DNA of 32,657 bases from Alphaproteobacteria bacterium. GTDB lineage: Bacteria; Pseudomonadota; Alphaproteobacteria; Rs-D84. The stretch is from the NCBI GenBank assembly GCA_017630405.1, contig JAGBVH010000006.1, positions 1 to 32,657 of the forward strand, written 5' to 3'. Below are positions 1 to 12,335 of this stretch, in pieces (position 1 is the stretch's first letter; the number at the start of each line of letters is the position of its first letter). The notes under the pieces were generated by a model that was not told the DNA's origin, did not search any database, and was given only the letters and a program-made list of their open reading frames with translations. The position numbers and the translations under genes are program-made.

Positions 1-12
1 TAACCCTTTTTA

Positions 13-189
13 CTAGTATTTTACATGTACAATCAGGTCGTTTCCAGTACTTTTTAGCCAAGATGTAAAAGCATTTATTTGCCCCGTCATATCAATACAG
101 CCCGCCGAACCCAAATTCCAACCACCATGAATTGAAAAATCATCACGACCATATGTGTTGGTTTCTTTTGCCAGACTAAAATTTTGCAT
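13..189 (-). pseudogene. Orphan C-terminal catalytic tip of the L,D-transpeptidase/DUF2778-like effector
   Basis: This short reading frame encodes 58 residues matching the last ~50 residues of the effector gene at 545-1567, including the His and Cys of the catalytic signature (SIHGG...GSAGCIDM). Nothing is left of the N-terminal or peptidoglycan-binding regions. Its ATG lies inside the end of the preceding membrane-protein gene, which stops at 176-178, so it would be translationally coupled if expressed. The last 99 bases of the unit (1-99) are identical to 533-631, whereas the upstream part has diverged. It is either a truncated tandem duplicate or an orphan toxin tip of the kind seen in polymorphic-toxin loci. 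Whether it folds alone is doubtful, since an L,D-transpeptidase domain is usually over 100 residues. The gene end is inside the window, but what follows is not. Confidence 0.6.
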
Positions 190-529
190 AATGATATAAC
201 AGAGTACCAAGCAAAGAATCAGTCCAAGATATTATGGTCGGACTTAACGCGATCCAGAAAGCTGCTTTATAGTTTTTCTTATACAAAAAATACAATGATA
301 CTGGAATAAAAAACAACAGCGTGGCACAAGAAGATACTAGATTTGTTAAATATACATCTGCACTACGCCATGCCCAGCCCATAGATTCGCCGCCCCATGG
401 ACAATAATGAAACGGGAACGCATCACGACATTCTTTGATAAAAAAGTCATAGTAATCGTAAAGGCCTACGAATAACAAAAACACATTTAGACAGTTTAGG
501 ATAATTGCGACCCGTTTCCATTTTTGCAT
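176..529 (-). CDS. Small three-TM membrane protein, candidate immunity protein
   Basis: A 117-aa protein of no recognised family. Three hydrophobic segments are visible: about residues 7-27, 60-82 and 88-112. A Cys/Trp/Gly-rich loop between the first two probably faces the periplasm. The gene starts 15 bases after the stop of the effector gene (545-1567). Its ribosome site (AAAAAGGG) sits in the short segment that is duplicated together with the effector 3' end, so the two genes are almost surely co-transcribed. It ends inside the orphan effector tip. Position between a peptidoglycan-active effector and an orphan copy of its catalytic end is what an immunity gene would show, and an inner-membrane protein with a periplasmic loop could guard against a periplasmic toxin. 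That role is inferred from context only. Confidence 0.65.
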   Translation of the reverse strand: MQKWKRVAIILNCLNVFLLFVGLYDYYDFFIKECRDAFPFHYCPWGGESMGWAWRSADVYLTNLVSSCATLLFFIPVSLYFLYKKNYKAAFWIALSPTIISWTDSLLGTLLYHYAKF

Positions 530-544
530 ACATAACCCTTTTTA

Positions 545-1567
545 CTAGTATTTTACATGTACAATCAGGTCGTTTCCAGTACTTTTTAGCCAAGATGTAA
601 AAGCATTTATTTGCCCCGTCATATCAATACAACCGGCGGAACCTGGCCACCACCCGCCATGTATGCTAAAATTGTCACGACCGTATGTATTTGTTTTATT
701 TGATGGTTCCAACCAGACGCGCGAATTTCCCCACGAATAAGACGAACCTGGCCATCTGCCACCATATTCCTTTCCTAATACCCTTGATAGTCCTATTGCT
801 TTATCTGTGGGTGACATAAATTGTAATCTTTGTTGTCTCGCAACGTATGTGCCTTCGGGAATCGTGCCTTTCTTTTTTACATATTGGCATTCTGGGCTTT
901 GATACCCCTTGGCGCCAGATACCGCATCCCAGGACATAATCGGTTTATCGTTTTCATACAGTGTAAATTTCTTGCCGTCAAATACCGCAACTTGATTTTT
1001 GTTTGTATTGACCGGATATTCAAATTTTGCGCCATGTGATTCAAACTTCGTATTCAACACCCGTTCTGTTTCGTCACCCGATGATATACGCCCAGTTACG
1101 GGTAAATTGTTATCGCGTTGAAAATCCTTAATCGCTGTAACCAGTTCTGTGTTTGCATATTTGTGAAATTGCTCGTCAGGTTCACTACGTTCATTGGGCT
1201 TATAGTAGTTCATTTTATACAGGTTCTTTTTCAGTTTTATAACATCGTCATCATTTGTTGTTTCATTCGATGACACTGTACCATTCAGGCTAAAATCTTT
1301 TTCTTTATTCTTATTTTCTTTTTCATCCTTATTTTCTGGTTTTTGTCCGTTATAGTGATATGGGCAAATACGCTCGTATGGGGCAACCTCGGTGCCATCG
1401 GCACGTGTGTATCCGGATACTTGAACGATTCCGTCGCATTGTTCGGTGGTTGTGTCGCCACGACCAGATTGTGGTTTCCTCTTGCTTTTTGCGTATGAAT
1501 TAACCAATGTTCCGATTGTTTGAACCCAGTCCCTGGTTCGCATAGATGTGTATTCTTTTAATGACAT
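545..1567 (-). CDS. Peptidoglycan-binding, L,D-transpeptidase/DUF2778-like effector or cell-wall enzyme
   Basis: A 340-aa protein. Residues 1-45 are polar without a signal peptide. Around 45-65 there is a GYTRADGT motif of the type repeated in phage and secreted proteins, followed by a Lys/Glu-rich linker. A PG_binding_1-like segment follows at about 110-170 (ends AIKDFQRDNNLPVTGRI). The C-terminal ~150 residues carry IHGG...GSAGCIDM with His303 and Cys313, the catalytic pair of YkuD/DUF2778 L,D-transpeptidase-fold enzymes; Tlde1, a secreted toxin that attacks peptidoglycan, has this domain. The start at 1567 was chosen for its AAAGGA site; an upstream in-frame extension would translate the leader hairpins. 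The lack of a signal peptide fits a secreted effector, or a phage-type lysin. A membrane-protein gene and an orphan copy of the tip follow. Confidence 0.7.
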   Translation of the reverse strand: MSLKEYTSMRTRDWVQTIGTLVNSYAKSKRKPQSGRGDTTTEQCDGIVQVSGYTRADGTEVAPYERICPYHYNGQKPENKDEKENKNKEKDFSLNGTVSSNETTNDDDVIKLKKNLYKMNYYKPNERSEPDEQFHKYANTELVTAIKDFQRDNNLPVTGRISSGDETERVLNTKFESHGAKFEYPVNTNKNQVAVFDGKKFTLYENDKPIMSWDAVSGAKGYQSPECQYVKKKGTIPEGTYVARQQRLQFMSPTDKAIGLSRVLGKEYGGRWPGSSYSWGNSRVWLEPSNKTNTYGRDNFSIHGGWWPGSAGCIDMTGQINAFTSWLKSTGNDLIVHVKY

Positions 1568-1583
1568 ATTTAATCCTTTTGCT

Positions 1584-1608
1584 AAAAAAACACCCGCGCG
1601 TGGCGGGT
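1584..1608 (-). terminator. Leader hairpin 2 (terminator-like), between promoter and start codon
   Basis: On the minus strand ACCCGC and GCGGGT pair around a 5-nt loop and are followed by G and seven T. It lies 17 bases before the effector start codon and downstream of its promoter, so an RNA polymerase from that promoter must read through it. It looks like an intrinsic terminator used as an attenuator. Confidence 0.7.
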
Positions 1609-1611
1609 AAT

Positions 1612-1635
1612 AAAAAAAGACGACCAAATGTCGTC
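1612..1635 (-). terminator. Leader hairpin 1 (terminator-like), between promoter and start codon
   Basis: On the minus strand GACGAC and GTCGTC pair around ATTTG and are followed by seven T. It lies immediately upstream of leader hairpin 2 and about 10 nt after the expected transcription start. Together they make a tandem terminator inside a ~76-nt leader. Confidence 0.7.
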
Positions 1636-1649
1636 CGCTGAATAAGTGT

Positions 1650-1678
1650 ATTATACCACAAAACACGAAATTTTTCAA
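1650..1678 (-). promoter_or_regulatory. Strong sigma-70-type promoter for the effector locus
   Basis: On the minus strand TTGAAA (1673-1678), 17-nt spacer, TATAAT (1650-1655). The -35 box abuts the T-run of the tRNA-His terminator. The predicted start is near 1643. Confidence 0.75.
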
Positions 1679-1702
1679 TAAAAAACGCCCCGAATGGGAC
1701 GT
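1679..1702 (-). terminator. Intrinsic terminator of the tRNA-Ala/tRNA-His unit
   Basis: On the minus strand ACGTCCC and GGGGCGT pair (one T-G pair) around ATTC, followed by six T. It sits 7 bases after the CCA end of tRNA-His. Confidence 0.75.
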
Positions 1703-1709
1703 TTATTAA

Positions 1710-1787
1710 TGGGGCGGATAACCGGACTCGAACCGGCGACATTTGGTACCACAAACCAACGCTCTAACCAACTGAGCTATATCCGCC
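1710..1787 (-). tRNA. tRNA-His (GTG)
   Basis: Cloverleaf on the minus strand. The acceptor stem GCGGATA pairs with TATCCGC, with the extra G-1 opposite C73 that marks tRNA-His. The anticodon loop TTGTGGT gives GTG, and the T-arm has TTCGAGT. CCA is encoded (1710-1712). It is co-transcribed with tRNA-Ala, 15 bases upstream. Confidence 0.95.
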
Positions 1788-1802
1788 ATACTGAATCTTA
1801 CT

Positions 1803-1878
1803 TGGTGGAGCTGATCGGACTCGAACCGACGACCCCTTGCATGCCATGCAAGTGCTCTACCAACTGAGCTACAACCCC
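1803..1878 (-). tRNA. tRNA-Ala (GGC)
   Basis: Cloverleaf on the minus strand with acceptor GGGGTTG/CAGCTCC, which contains the G3-U70 pair that defines alanine identity. The anticodon loop ATGGCAT gives GGC. The T-loop is TTCGAGT and CCA is encoded. It is the first gene of a two-tRNA transcript. Confidence 0.95.
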
Positions 1879-3996: not shown

Positions 3997-5067
3997 ATGC
4001 AGTTTATTTTGACCATAGTCGCATTGTTGGTTGTATTGGGTGTCGTGGTTTTTGTACACGAACTGGGGCACTTTTTGGCGGCTCGCTGGGCGGGTGTTCG
4101 TGTTGATGCGTTTTCAATTGGTTTTGGGCCTGCGTTGATTAAATGGACTGATCATCGTGGCACGATATGGAAGATTGCGTGCCTGCCATTGGGGGGGTAT
4201 GTTTCAATCTATGGCCAAGAAGATATGTTTAATCGCAAAAAGTACACAGAATTACCTGCGGAAAAAAAGAAGGGCCATTATCTGTCTGCGCCTGCGTGGA
4301 AACAGTTTATAATTATTGCTGCTGGCGTGTTTATGAATTTTGTTTTGGCGTGGGGTATTTATACATCGCTGTTTATGTTCAAGCCAAGTTTGGTTGGTAA
4401 TTCTCAACTGCCAGTTATCGGTCAGGTTATTCAGGAATCTGTCGCATTCAAGGCCGGCGTTAAACCAGGAGATACAATTGTTCGTATTGATGACGAAAAG
4501 ATTTCAAACTGGGGCGAAGTTATTTTGGCCAAAGAATTGGCATCAAATCGCGAAGCAGATGTTCTTATTGTTCGTGGCGATAAATTGGTTAATATAAAAC
4601 TGGCACCATCGGACAGATGGGGTATGGTTGCGGACGGTGCGCGTCGTGCTGCCCCAAAATCCCAAGGTTTGTTCCGCGCTATGTATTCTGGTGCCCGCAA
4701 AACTTATTATGAATCCAAGACATTGTTGGTGGTGCTTAAACAAATCATCACTGGCGAGCGTTCATCAAAACAACTTGGTTCATTTATAACGATTGCGGAA
4801 TATTCGGGCAAGGCGATGCTTGCTGGATTCTTTACATTATTGTCCTTGATTGCGTTGCTGTCTGTAAATCTTGGGGTGTTGAACTTATTGCCGTTGCCGG
4901 TATTGGATGGTGGCTATCTGTTGATATTGATTATCGAGGCCGTCACCCGTCGTAAACTTCAGGGGCGTGGTATGGAAATTGCGATAATGGTTGGCTGGGT
5001 TTTGATATTGGGATTATTCCTGCTGACTATGTGGAATGATTTGGCACGTGTATTTGGATGGTATTGA
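3997..5067 (+). CDS. rseP: RseP/site-2 intramembrane zinc metalloprotease
   Basis: A 356-aa inner-membrane protease that cleaves transmembrane substrates such as anti-sigma factors and signal-peptide remnants. The first helix holds the zinc motif HELGH (residues 21-25). A single PDZ domain lies about residues 125-205 (VIGQVIQESVAFKAGVKPGD). The C-terminal helix pair has NLLPLPVLDGGYLL, which supplies the third zinc ligand. E. coli RseP has two PDZ domains; only one is seen here, as in many alphaproteobacterial homologues. It stops 2 bases before the bamA start, indicating tight coupling. Confidence 0.95.
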   Translation: MQFILTIVALLVVLGVVVFVHELGHFLAARWAGVRVDAFSIGFGPALIKWTDHRGTIWKIACLPLGGYVSIYGQEDMFNRKKYTELPAEKKKGHYLSAPAWKQFIIIAAGVFMNFVLAWGIYTSLFMFKPSLVGNSQLPVIGQVIQESVAFKAGVKPGDTIVRIDDEKISNWGEVILAKELASNREADVLIVRGDKLVNIKLAPSDRWGMVADGARRAAPKSQGLFRAMYSGARKTYYESKTLLVVLKQIITGERSSKQLGSFITIAEYSGKAMLAGFFTLLSLIALLSVNLGVLNLLPLPVLDGGYLLILIIEAVTRRKLQGRGMEIAIMVGWVLILGLFLLTMWNDLARVFGWY

Positions 5068-5069
5068 TT

Positions 5070-7340
5070 ATGAAGAAAGTTTCTTGTCTTGCGATTTTAT
5101 TAGCGATATCAGGCGCAGCAAATGCTGCGACTGTTTCGCGTATAGATGTGACCGGTGCCCAGCGTATGGATGCGGAATCTGTGCGTATCTTATCTGGGGT
5201 CAATGTTGGCGATAATGTTGGTGAATCTCGTACCAATACGATTGCCAAGAAATTACAAGAAAGCGGATATTTTTCCAAAATAAATGTTCGTATGTCCGGC
5301 AATGTTTTGAAAATCGATGTTGCCGAAGCACCAATTATCAATATGGTGACGGTCGAAGGAAATGATGAAGTTTCCACCGATGATTTAAAGAAAGAATTAA
5401 AGACCAAGGAACGCACATCATACGATGCATCTGTAATCGGTGCGGATGTCCAGCGTCTGTTAACGGTGTATCAGCGTCAGGGTTTTTTCGGAACAAAAAT
5501 CGAGCCTAAAAAAATCGAACTGGATGATAATCGTGTAAATGTTGTCTATGAAATCACCGAAGGTCATCCGACATGGATTACAGATATTGAATTCGAAGGT
5601 AACAAGAATTTTTCTGACCGCACACTTCGTGGTGAAATTTTATCGCGCGAACATGCGTGGTGGCGTTTTATGACACAGTTCGACACATTTGACGAAGACA
5701 GAATCCAATACGATGGTCAAATGTTGCGTCAGTTTTATTTGCGTAACGGCTATGTTGACTTTGTGGTCAAGGATACAACTGGTACATTTACACCTGATCG
5801 CGAATATTATTCTGTTGTGTTTACGGTTGACGAAGGCGACCAATACGACTTTGGCAAATTAACCATCGATAATCCGTTCCCAGATGTTCCAACCGAAGTC
5901 TTGAACGAAGTTATAGTAATGGATGCGGGTGATGTCTATAATGTGGACAAAGTCGAAGAAACAATGTCCGCTATTCGCAGTGCTGTTGCGGACTATGGCT
6001 ATGCGTTTATCAATGTTGAACCAATTCCGACCAAGAACGATACGGATAAAACAATCGATTTAAATTTCAAGATTCAGAAAACCAATCGTATTTATCTGAA
6101 CACGATAAATATTCTGGGTAATGTTCGTACATTTGATTCTGTTATAGAACAGTTAATTCCAATGCGCGCGGGCGATCCTTTTTCTTTACAGACAATCGAA
6201 GAAGGCCGCCAGAAATTAATGCGCACACGTTATTTCAAAGATGTTCAAATGGTCCCAACCCGTGTTGCGGATTCAAATATGATGAATTTGGATATCAAGG
6301 TCGAAGAGCAGCCAACCGGTGAATTGTCGGGCGGATTTGGTTGGTCGAATATTAACGGCTTTATGGTTGATGCGGGCATTACCGAAAACAACTTTATGGG
6401 CCGCGGTCAGGTCGTGCAGTTGCGTGGTTCGATTGCTGAATATCAAAAGCAGGCATTATTCAGTTTCACAGAACCATATCTGTTTGGCCGTCAATTATCT
6501 GGTGGATTTGATGTATCATATACAATGTATGATTATTCATCTTTGGGCAGTTTTGGATACGATCGTGATTCCTTGACCATTGCGGGTCGTATGGGTTGGA
6601 GACTGACCGACCATTGGACACAAAATGTTCGTCTGTCCGCATCCTTTGACCAGAACTATGATATTCAGGCAACTGGTGGCTGGCAAAAGGCAAATCTGTA
6701 TACACTGGGGACCAGTTTCCGCTATCATAATCTGGACAGTAATTTCGCCCATAACACCCACACCGGCATTGTTGCGAATCTGGGGATTGCCTATACAGGT
6801 TTTGGTGGTACTGAATCATTTATGCGCTACAGCGGTGATATTATCGGTATGGTAAAGTTTTTCGATGACCGTTGGCAACTGCGTTCATCGTTGGACTTTG
6901 GATATATTCAGCCAATTAATGATGCGTATGTATCGCGTGTTTATCGCTATTTCTTGGGTGGTGAATCCCTGCGTGGATTTGATGTCGCTGGTGTTGGGTC
7001 GCGTCTTTGGTATAACTCAACATACGCATTGGGTGGATTGTGGAAATTAAATGGTTCGACCCAGTTAAATTTCCCAATATTTATCCCAGACGAATATCAG
7101 ATTAAGGGTTTTGTATTCTTTGATTACGGTGTGTTGGGCAAACCGCCTGAAAAAGAATATACGGACCCATATATGCATAAGCCAAATGACATTGATGATT
7201 CTTGGCGCACATCTGTTGGTGTTGGTATTTATTGGAATACACCAATGGGTCCAATGAATTTCAGTTGGGGCTGGCCATTAAAGATGACAGAATACGACCG
7301 CGAACAGCGTTTCTTGTTGTCATTTGAAACCCAGTTTTAG
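5070..7340 (+). CDS. bamA: Outer membrane protein assembly factor BamA
   Basis: 756 residues. A signal peptide (MKKVSCLAILLAISGAANA) is followed by about five POTRA repeats to residue ~410. A C-terminal 16-strand Omp85 barrel follows, with the conserved SLRGF lid-loop motif (around residue 640) and a terminal Phe (FETQF). BamA folds and inserts outer-membrane proteins. ATG 5070 begins the signal peptide and is preferred to ATG 5058, which lies inside rseP. It closes the envelope operon. No skp/lpxD genes follow, unlike the common proteobacterial order; a new promoter starts 3 bases after the stop. Confidence 0.96.
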   Translation: MKKVSCLAILLAISGAANAATVSRIDVTGAQRMDAESVRILSGVNVGDNVGESRTNTIAKKLQESGYFSKINVRMSGNVLKIDVAEAPIINMVTVEGNDEVSTDDLKKELKTKERTSYDASVIGADVQRLLTVYQRQGFFGTKIEPKKIELDDNRVNVVYEITEGHPTWITDIEFEGNKNFSDRTLRGEILSREHAWWRFMTQFDTFDEDRIQYDGQMLRQFYLRNGYVDFVVKDTTGTFTPDREYYSVVFTVDEGDQYDFGKLTIDNPFPDVPTEVLNEVIVMDAGDVYNVDKVEETMSAIRSAVADYGYAFINVEPIPTKNDTDKTIDLNFKIQKTNRIYLNTINILGNVRTFDSVIEQLIPMRAGDPFSLQTIEEGRQKLMRTRYFKDVQMVPTRVADSNMMNLDIKVEEQPTGELSGGFGWSNINGFMVDAGITENNFMGRGQVVQLRGSIAEYQKQALFSFTEPYLFGRQLSGGFDVSYTMYDYSSLGSFGYDRDSLTIAGRMGWRLTDHWTQNVRLSASFDQNYDIQATGGWQKANLYTLGTSFRYHNLDSNFAHNTHTGIVANLGIAYTGFGGTESFMRYSGDIIGMVKFFDDRWQLRSSLDFGYIQPINDAYVSRVYRYFLGGESLRGFDVAGVGSRLWYNSTYALGGLWKLNGSTQLNFPIFIPDEYQIKGFVFFDYGVLGKPPEKEYTDPYMHKPNDIDDSWRTSVGVGIYWNTPMGPMNFSWGWPLKMTEYDREQRFLLSFETQF

Positions 7341-11622: not shown

Positions 11623-12198
11623 TCAATAATAAACTCGGAATATCAGCGACCAATTTTCATTATTTATTGTTGTGGTCACACCGGTTGATTTATTGCTGAC
11701 CCAATAGTTTTCGCCGCCTATCATCATACATATATATAATTTGCCATTACTTTGATATGTGTATGGGGCAGGTGCGCTGCGCGAACCGATACCAAACGCT
11801 GCAACAATATCGCCGGCCACATATCCATTTGCGTCAGATTTACACACCAAATAAGGGCGCACAATAACAGGTGTGACCTCGTCAATTATATATGTAATTG
11901 TGCTTCCGGCGTTCTTGGTCGGCACAGGTTCGGTTTCAATCATCGACAAAGAATTATTTTTGCTGTGTTGATTGACTATTTGTGCCCAAAATTCATCTGG
12001 TACGCTTGTAATGTCAAATGTACTGGTTCCGGTTGCCGTATTATTTTCGCTATTTCCGACTGTAAAACCACCAAGTGTTTCGCCATCGTGTACGCGCAGA
12101 GTCTTGGTTTCGGTATCCATTGTCAGTTCACCGTCCAGTCCAGTAAATGCATCGTTCTGTGCGGTTGTACCGCGTCTAAGTTGTAATACTTTTGCCAT
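11623..12198 (-). CDS. Phage-fibre-type protein with Mtd-like N-terminal domain
   Basis: 191 residues. The first ~45 (LQLRRGTTAQNDAFTG, GELTMDTETKTLRVHDG) match the N-terminal attachment domain of phage major tropism determinant and many tail-fibre proteins, which fixes a fibre to a baseplate or precedes a trimerising tip. The remaining ~145 residues are beta-rich without a family I recognise; this would be the receptor-binding or variable part. ATG 12198 has AAAGGA seven bases upstream. No other phage structural genes are next to it apart from the 773-aa coiled-coil gene upstream. It has its own promoter and a leader with two terminator-like hairpins, the same arrangement as the effector gene at 545-1567. 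Confidence 0.72.
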   Translation of the reverse strand: MAKVLQLRRGTTAQNDAFTGLDGELTMDTETKTLRVHDGETLGGFTVGNSENNTATGTSTFDITSVPDEFWAQIVNQHSKNNSLSMIETEPVPTKNAGSTITYIIDEVTPVIVRPYLVCKSDANGYVAGDIVAAFGIGSRSAPAPYTYQSNGKLYICMMIGGENYWVSNKSTGVTTTINNENWSLIFRVYY

Positions 12199-12226
12199 AT
12201 GTTTTTCCTTTGTTTATTTTTTAGCT

Positions 12227-12254
12227 AAAAAAATCCCCATGCGCTGGGCATGGG
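12227..12254 (-). terminator. Leader hairpin 2 upstream of the fibre-type gene
   Basis: On the minus strand CCCATGC and GCATGGG pair around a 5-nt loop, then GA and seven T. It lies between the promoter and the start codon, 29 bases from the ATG. Its ending TTTTTTTAGC is also seen after the leader hairpin at 1584-1608. Confidence 0.72.
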
Positions 12255-12258
12255 ATAT

Positions 12259-12282
12259 AAAAAAGACACCACATTCGTGGTG
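12259..12282 (-). terminator. Leader hairpin 1 upstream of the fibre-type gene
   Basis: On the minus strand CACCAC and GTGGTG pair around GAAT, then TC and six T. It could serve the upstream 773-aa gene as a terminator, but it also stands in the leader of the fibre-type gene, 3' of that gene's promoter. Confidence 0.7.
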
Positions 12283-12296
12283 CCTTATTTTCACAG

Positions 12297-12325
12297 ATTA
12301 TATCATAAAATCGATTAAAAATCAA
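12297..12325 (-). promoter_or_regulatory. Promoter of the fibre-type gene
   Basis: On the minus strand TTGATT (12320-12325), 17-nt spacer, TATAAT (12297-12302). The predicted start near 12290 gives a ~92-nt leader containing both hairpins. The promoter begins 11 bases after the stop of the 773-aa gene. Confidence 0.7.
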
Positions 12326-12335
12326 GATTATGATT

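Follow-up and report, generated by a model that had tools for sequence, protein, structure and literature searches.

Why should a bacterium keep, behind the gene for a predicted antibacterial enzyme, a duplicate of the enzyme's last part and no more? This question is raised by a contig (C1; GenBank JAGBVH010000006.1, assembly GCA_017630405.1) of an alphaproteobacterium of the GTDB lineage Rs-D84, the whole of which is referred to here as the window (32,657 bases). Near base 1, which is also the end of the contig, the minus strand carries a protein with peptidoglycan-binding and L,D-transpeptidase-like domains, a small protein with three transmembrane (TM) segments, and a copy of the catalytic tip of the larger protein. 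This three-part anatomy had been noted in a preliminary description made from the sequence, and our analysis confirms it. We propose that the locus combines an antibacterial effector-immunity module with the scar of an older one lying behind it, and we consider this the probable explanation. The features on which the argument rests are the following, in window coordinates.

545..1567, minus strand: predicted antibacterial effector of 340 amino acids (aa), with its ATG at 1567 and its stop codon at 545-547, identified by domain searches
548..721, minus strand: effector tip, aa 283-340, comprising a strand, H303 and C313, the C-terminal helix 317-330 and the last strand 333-338
176..529, minus strand: 117-aa protein with three TM segments, likely an immunity protein from its conserved pairing, with the loop motif PWGxE..GWxYxSxxxY
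13..189, minus strand: orphan tip, likely the 3' remnant of a displaced effector, an open reading frame (ORF) of 58 codons (189-13) with homology over 171-16
533..702, minus strand: repeat copy 1, the effector end and the region before the 117-aa gene
1..170, minus strand: repeat copy 2, the tip end and AAAAAGGG at 4-11, with the contig stopping at base 1

The effector consists of an N-terminal domain (aa 1-100), a PG_binding_1 domain (aa 106-161, E 9e-9, Pfam) and a Tlde1/YkuD catalytic domain from about aa 196 to aa 340. The latter is matched by Tlde1_dom (PF10908; aa 215-324, E 4.5e-9, 37.2 bits for a curated cut-off of 30.1) and by YkuD in Pfam (aa 199-328, E 7e-7). Moreover, when a profile of 43 relatives was compared with the sequences of the PDB, Tlde1a (7uma, 7uo3, 7uo8) was the sole match (E 1.5e-6). 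The catalytic H303 and C313 are invariant across the 43 sequences, and AlphaFold2 predicts the catalytic domain (192-338) with high confidence except at about aa 251-280. From these matches we infer a Tlde1-type L,D-transpeptidase/carboxypeptidase activity. No signal peptide was evident in the effector when its N-terminus was judged by reading. This N-terminus is present in 7/149 genomes, always on an ORF that also encodes the catalytic domain, and the Tlde1 domain occurs behind at least three different N-termini. One of these resembles MuF and is found in 58/149 genomes, many of the proteins being relatives of the window effector; it is also fused to GH24, GH108 and another lysozyme-like domain, as compared by eye with the Pfam matches, and some of these lytic proteins precede small lipoprotein-like genes. 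The MuF family itself (PF04233) scored below its cut-off in all three Tlde1 effectors tested.

The 117-aa protein is hydrophobic, starts 15 nucleotides (nt) past the effector stop and has no Pfam match above the cut-off, and it is its frequent company with the tip that speaks for its role. The effector query matched 20 of 59 genomes (the window's own and relatives), 19 of them within the window's genus, and a profile (A1) found relatives in 60/157 genus genomes, the window's own counted. The sources of the matched genomes include buffalo rumen, goat, horse and mouse. The window and 57 stretches of relatives (17 in a first set, then 40) gave 77 matches to the catalytic domain: 42 near-whole domains, 29 orphans and six with an intermediate start or a cut end. 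Among these, 66 tips are intact, reaching the C-terminal end without a stop, and the 11 with a stop or a cut end were excluded. Counting as a partner any ORF of 85-160 aa that starts at most 60 nt after the tip and has two or more predicted TM segments, we found one after 58/66 intact tips, compared with 6/308 control ORFs of at least 150 aa from the same loci. In 7/17 stretches of the first set, the gene next to a tip encodes a homologue of the 117-aa protein itself. The pairing is thus kept in relatives, which supports the earlier suggestion of a Tlde1-type effector/immunity locus with a polymorphic arrangement and removes the doubt, raised with it, that no homologous locus might keep the pair. 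Among 22 aligned partners no column is invariant; a common loop motif, PxGxE..GWxYxSxxxY, lies between TM 1 and TM 2 of the inferred topology. Outside the genus, 20/28 hand-picked Tlde1-type genes, from Magnetospirillum, Cupriavidus, Nostoc, Pseudoalteromonas, Geobacter and others, have an ORF of 80-160 aa with at least two TM segments within 130 nt; five of the 8/28 that have none belong to Ensifer/Sinorhizobium.

If the partner is an immunity protein, it should vary with the part of the effector that it recognizes. We compared 35 unique effectors having the whole catalytic domain with their partners, which form 11 groups at the level of clustering chosen. The correlation with partner distances (Mantel r) was 0.66 for the last 26 residues, 0.64 for the whole tip, 0.57 for the upstream catalytic part and 0.38 for the tip middle. 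Partial correlations were 0.53 for the tail given the upstream part, 0.65 for the tail given the middle and 0.37 for the upstream part given the tip (p<=0.0002). The tail also leads among 24 non-redundant effectors, with a mean z of 1.85, against 0.97 upstream and 0.77 in the middle. Column by column, partner association is found in the C-terminal helix and strand, with little in the catalytic motif, and also in a putative cap, so named from the likeness of the effector to Tlde1a, for which a capping subdomain is described (PMC9638812). Taken together, the conserved pairing and the co-variation with the effector's C-terminal tail and cap make the 117-aa protein a likely immunity protein, which we suppose to grip both flanks of the active-site groove.

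What, then, is the second tip? It is 90% identical to effector aa 290-340 and corresponds to the last 52-58 codons of the effector. With some 40% of the catalytic domain, it retains the catalytic His and Cys and is missing the domain's first half. Across the relatives, we called a match an orphan if it began no earlier than column 70 of the 145 in the model, a definition that makes every orphan partial. The 29 orphans start at columns 72-120, and 17 of them at 72-94, equivalent to effector aa ~267-289. Decay is common: five orphans have an in-frame stop, six have lost the C-terminal end and 11 have no in-frame start codon. Not one of the 29 is intact and also has a start codon with a motif resembling a ribosome-binding site (RBS), compared with 28/42 effectors having an ATG and such a motif. 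Within 260 nt, 20/29 orphans precede an ORF of 70-160 aa with at least two TM segments. These data give no support to the suggestion of a tip kept in store as a warhead ready for expression, or of a locus that actively exchanges or multiplies its tip; displaced 3' remnants lying before kept immunity genes fit better, and the orphan tips are likely to be such remnants. Likewise, the 'coupled starts' described for the locus are weak for the tip, because no RBS-like motif lies ahead of its ATG, which overlaps the 117-aa gene by 14 nt.

An indication of displacement comes from a relative. Window bases 737..16, containing the effector's tip, the 117-aa gene and the next tip, align at 89% with bases 4820-5542 of locus L178 in genome G084, and the whole window effector aligns separately with L178's own effector. 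There, a different effector and partner come first, followed by the window-type tip with the 117-aa gene, a second tip and a third partner, and the alignment boundary falls at effector residue 278. One and the same module can thus belong to an effector in one genome and stand as an orphan in the next. Insertion is the simplest account. A tip directly follows the 117-aa homologue in two relatives, L178 and L036 (in genome G004), and in both the next gene encodes a 117- or 118-aa protein with three TM segments, the kind of gene that the preliminary description had predicted for the window past base 1. Arrays are also present in L034, L036 and L044. Other effectors have orphan counterparts as well: those of L160 and L167 match orphans in L047 and L183, and that of L181 matches L161. 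Moreover, of 20 cassettes that are orphan or shortened, 13 share the partner family of the nearest effector tail, compared with a shuffled mean of 4.06, and 5/9999 shuffles reach 13. The end of L044 and the start of L043 (contigs C68 and C23 of genome G016) carry what appear to be the halves of one small membrane gene within a tip array; we left them unjoined.

In the window itself, bases 1-170 and 533-702 are 87% identical, far beyond chance, and AAAAAGGG at bases 4-11 (minus strand) is the stretch that also precedes the 117-aa gene. Because base 1 is the end of the contig, the array may continue past it. With the homologous L178 DNA as query, no continuation was found in other contigs of the window's genome: of 46 matches, the array appeared only in the window's own, the rest being tRNA-like or short.

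The following sequence of events would account for these observations. The 340-aa protein would bind peptidoglycan and, through its Tlde1-type domain, attack stem peptides in the periplasm of a rival, and the 117-aa membrane protein would block it by touching both flanks of the active site, at the C-terminal helix and strand and at the cap. Recombination within the catalytic domain, often near aa 267-290 and, in L167, near aa 213, would bring in a new 3' end of the effector together with its immunity gene, shifting the old 3' end and the old immunity gene downstream. The old immunity gene would remain useful against relatives, and the tip, left with no start signals, would decay.

Several observations weigh against this explanation or narrow it. 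By our rule, 8/66 intact tips have no partner; window_171 and L044_387 lie at contig ends, and L034_5196, L045, L048, L159, L165 and L184 lie away from them. An RBS-like motif was found within 30 codons for only 24/63 partner ORFs, and since partner ORFs often have none, a missing motif does not prove that a tip is silent. The dN/dS ratio (nonsynonymous to synonymous changes) of orphan versus effector tips is mostly below 1. Six matches have an intermediate start or a cut end, and in L167 (G141:C4) the effector is followed by two displaced copies that start at column 18 and keep nearly the whole domain. As to co-variation, leave-one-out nearest neighbours predict the partner family for 24/35 effectors from the tail and for 23/35 from the upstream part, and because the tail predicts no better, ancestry accounts for part of the signal. 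Partner-linked columns lie also in the putative cap (columns 56-67 and 76-82, aa ~251-277), and only three columns exceed z 4 among the 24 non-redundant effectors. Finally, the repeat in the window may have arisen by tandem duplication of the tip with its immunity gene.

Some of the same observations could be read as storage with active switching, the orphan tips serving as donor cassettes in a functional reservoir, as in Rhs and contact-dependent inhibition (CDI) orphan modules. The movement of a tip and its partner between effector-borne and orphan positions across genomes (window/L178; L160/L167/L047/L183; L181/L161) would be expected of such a reservoir, and the effector of L167 is still followed by two catalytic domains that are almost complete, each displaced copy coming with its own three-TM partner. 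Between cassette copies, dN/dS is mostly below 1 for both partner and tip where it is defined (18 pairs), and in some pairs the synonymous divergence (dS) is very unlike in the two; in L034/L188 it is 0.77 in the tip and 0 in the partner, as if recombination breaks lay within the tip. This contrast, drawn from few codons, hints at such breaks. We regard storage as unlikely, as the orphan tips have no start signals and many are decayed, specificity possibly resides also in the cap, which most tips lack, and no switch within a strain was seen, with one assembly per genome. That the tip is a one-off, produced by a local tandem repeat or an assembly artefact, is scarcely credible: the contig does stop at the repeat, a frequent stopping place of assemblers, but tip copies occur in many genomes, and in L178 and L036, too, the 117-aa homologue is followed by a tip at this position, so that this account is largely refuted by relatives.

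A further alternative is a phage-type lysis pair, that is, an endolysin with a three-TM holin left by a dispersed or decayed prophage. Genes behind the leader that the effector shares with other loci (described below) are often of phage type, including 11 phage lysozymes, 6 GH108, 5 MuF and 4 Mtd_N proteins among 40 scanned; the 117-aa protein has a weak match to holin_SPP1 (E 0.21), and distant relatives of the domain are present in 10 viral contigs and two phage records. Against this, P0002 had no match in 50,697 phage records, the window locus adjoins tRNAs and housekeeping-type genes, and no phage structural genes were seen among the neighbouring window genes scanned, capsid genes not having been searched genome-wide. 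To our knowledge, moreover, holins would not be expected to track the tail of an enzyme or to form arrays of several families. We consider the lysis pair very improbable, and return to the effector-immunity module with its scar in describing the surroundings of the locus.

These surroundings comprise the leader of the effector gene, two tRNA genes and, further along the window, a second copy of the leader with a phage-type gene. The corresponding features are these, the last being on another contig of the same genome.

1582..1684, minus strand: conserved leader, with a sigma70-like promoter at 1678-1650 and terminator-like hairpins at 1636-1618 and 1609-1591
1710..1878, minus strand: genes for tRNA-His and tRNA-Ala, immediately ahead of the effector gene
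12225..12331, minus strand: second leader copy (55 bits, E 2e-7)
11623..12198, minus strand: 191-aa protein with an Mtd_N domain (N-terminal domain of the major tropism determinant), behind the second leader
G000:C16:35672-35774: leader copy elsewhere in the window's genome

The promoter of the leader matches at 11/12 positions, with a 17-nt spacer and a TG ahead of the -10 element, and the hairpins are followed by an RBS-like site and then the effector ATG. BLAST found 30 leader matches in the loci examined, the window included, mostly before effector genes with unrelated N-termini; for 3/30, no ORF of 60 aa follows. In 23 copies of the hairpins, 6/10 base pairs vary on both sides and 97.8% of cells are paired; none of 500 shuffles was as high on any of five measures, and slid partners were paired at 31-65%. 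In Rfam, only the two tRNAs reached the gathering score within window bases 1-2000. A model of the leader matched 95/97 genus genomes, 69/69 of the near-complete ones, with five copies in the window's genome. Applied to 20 later loci, two of which had been used in building it, it matched 14 and left six without a match, and it was found before effectors absent from the model, such as those of L158, L182, L157 and L179.

The genes behind the leader have much in common with phages. We sampled 42 leaders, non-randomly, among the high scorers listed and with the window added, and 40/42 precede an ORF of at least 80 aa. Besides the phage-type families given above, Pfam named eight EcoRI-type DNA methylases, one C5 methylase and the window effector among the 40, the rest having no such names; one protein may carry two of them. 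Behind the EcoRI-type methylases (L326, L327, L330, L334, L335 and others) there is often a gene whose product has a signal-like N-terminus, and these products share a common start. L316, L318, L323 and L338 each carry a leader-linked 216-aa protein of no named family and then a small gene, presumably DUF488-like, which we also place downstream of the effectors of L032 and L040. In the window's own genome, L303 (G000:C16:33000-36500) holds a second candidate effector linked to the leader, a 201-aa MuF protein followed by a gene for a 165-aa lipoprotein-like product. In the window, the lone Mtd_N gene (11623-12198, minus strand), which is of phage tail-fibre type, directly precedes an acetate kinase gene. 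Neither the leader pattern nor the MuF-like N-terminus nor P0004 had relatives in viral contigs. The leader-linked genes suggest a dispersed, phage-derived and co-regulated gene set. One could speculate further that this is a genus-wide regulon, whose hairpins hold the genes off until antitermination, and that it arms or builds a particle resembling a gene transfer agent (GTA) that carries wall-attacking effectors into kin; the immunity arrays would then guard against earlier variants. We hold this idea to be doubtful, and delivery by a particle is a possibility and not a result.

The effector ATG at 1567 lies about 140 nt from tRNA-His, and the neighbourhood of tRNA genes is a recurring property of these loci. 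A tRNA on the same strand ends within 800 nt upstream of 17/37 near-whole-domain matches, all of them with 800 nt of upstream sequence, compared with 11/324 control ORFs. In addition, 9/18 loci examined (L035, L158, L161, L163, L166, L177, L178, L182 and L186) have exact repeats of 14-28 nt of the tRNA 3' end downstream of the tRNA, a count made with no chance control. In L186 a 27-nt repeat lies at +1838, behind the effector/partner module; the window has no such repeat. The repeats suggest, but do not prove, site-specific insertion.

How might such an effector reach its target? The sheath of the type VI secretion system (T6SS; PF05943) was found in 0/149 genus genomes, the window's own included, with a positive E. 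coli control, and for this reason we class the window effector as a Tlde1-domain protein and not as a T6SS effector. The phage sheath (PF04984) is present in 4/97 genomes, the window's own not among them. Components of a type IV secretion system (T4SS) are frequent, with VirB4 in 82/97 genomes, VirB10 in 53/59 and VirD4 in 57/59, the window's own in each, and Pfam shows VirB3, B4, B8, B9 and B10 in the window's genome. A T4SS also occurs in genomes with no effector match (for example G018 and G060), and no signal was seen that ties it to the effector. The effector may be delivered by the VirB/D4 T4SS or by a phage-derived particle.

Our reading would extend effector displacement with retention of immunity genes from the Vibrio T6SS to Alphaproteobacteria of the animal gut that have no T6SS sheath genes, and would place the break inside a catalytic domain of about 145 residues. 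Moreover, the small three-TM partners with their common loop motif offer a testable general family of immunity proteins for Tlde1 enzymes, other taxa included, and the common leader provides a handle for listing the whole arsenal, how it is switched on and how it is delivered.

In the literature searched, from which subscription papers were mostly absent, we found no description of Tlde1-domain arrays in such bacteria, and the locus is best placed by comparison with four known systems. With Tlde1/Tldi1 of the Salmonella T6SS (SPI-6; PMC9638812), it shares the Tlde1 domain, the catalytic His and Cys and an adjacent likely immunity gene; the window effector differs in its additional PG_binding_1 domain, in its N-terminus and in belonging to a genus with no T6SS sheath. 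As for the MuF polymorphic toxins (PMC3482391), many relatives in the genus share a weak MuF-like N-terminus, which is also found on lytic domains, whereas the N-terminus of the window protein is different. The bacteria-killing T4SS with XVIPCD effectors (PMC10989847) resembles the present case in that the genus has VirB4, VirB10 and VirD4 together with predicted lytic effectors and small partner genes; in contrast, the catalytic domain here reaches the C-terminus of the effector, with no space for a C-terminal signal domain. A parallel in logic is the Vibrio T6SS, where new modules have been proposed to displace old effectors while the immunity genes are kept (PMC5361080). In the loci described here the effector family is another one and there is no T6SS sheath, the junction lies within the catalytic domain, and the loci are dispersed, often next to tRNA genes.

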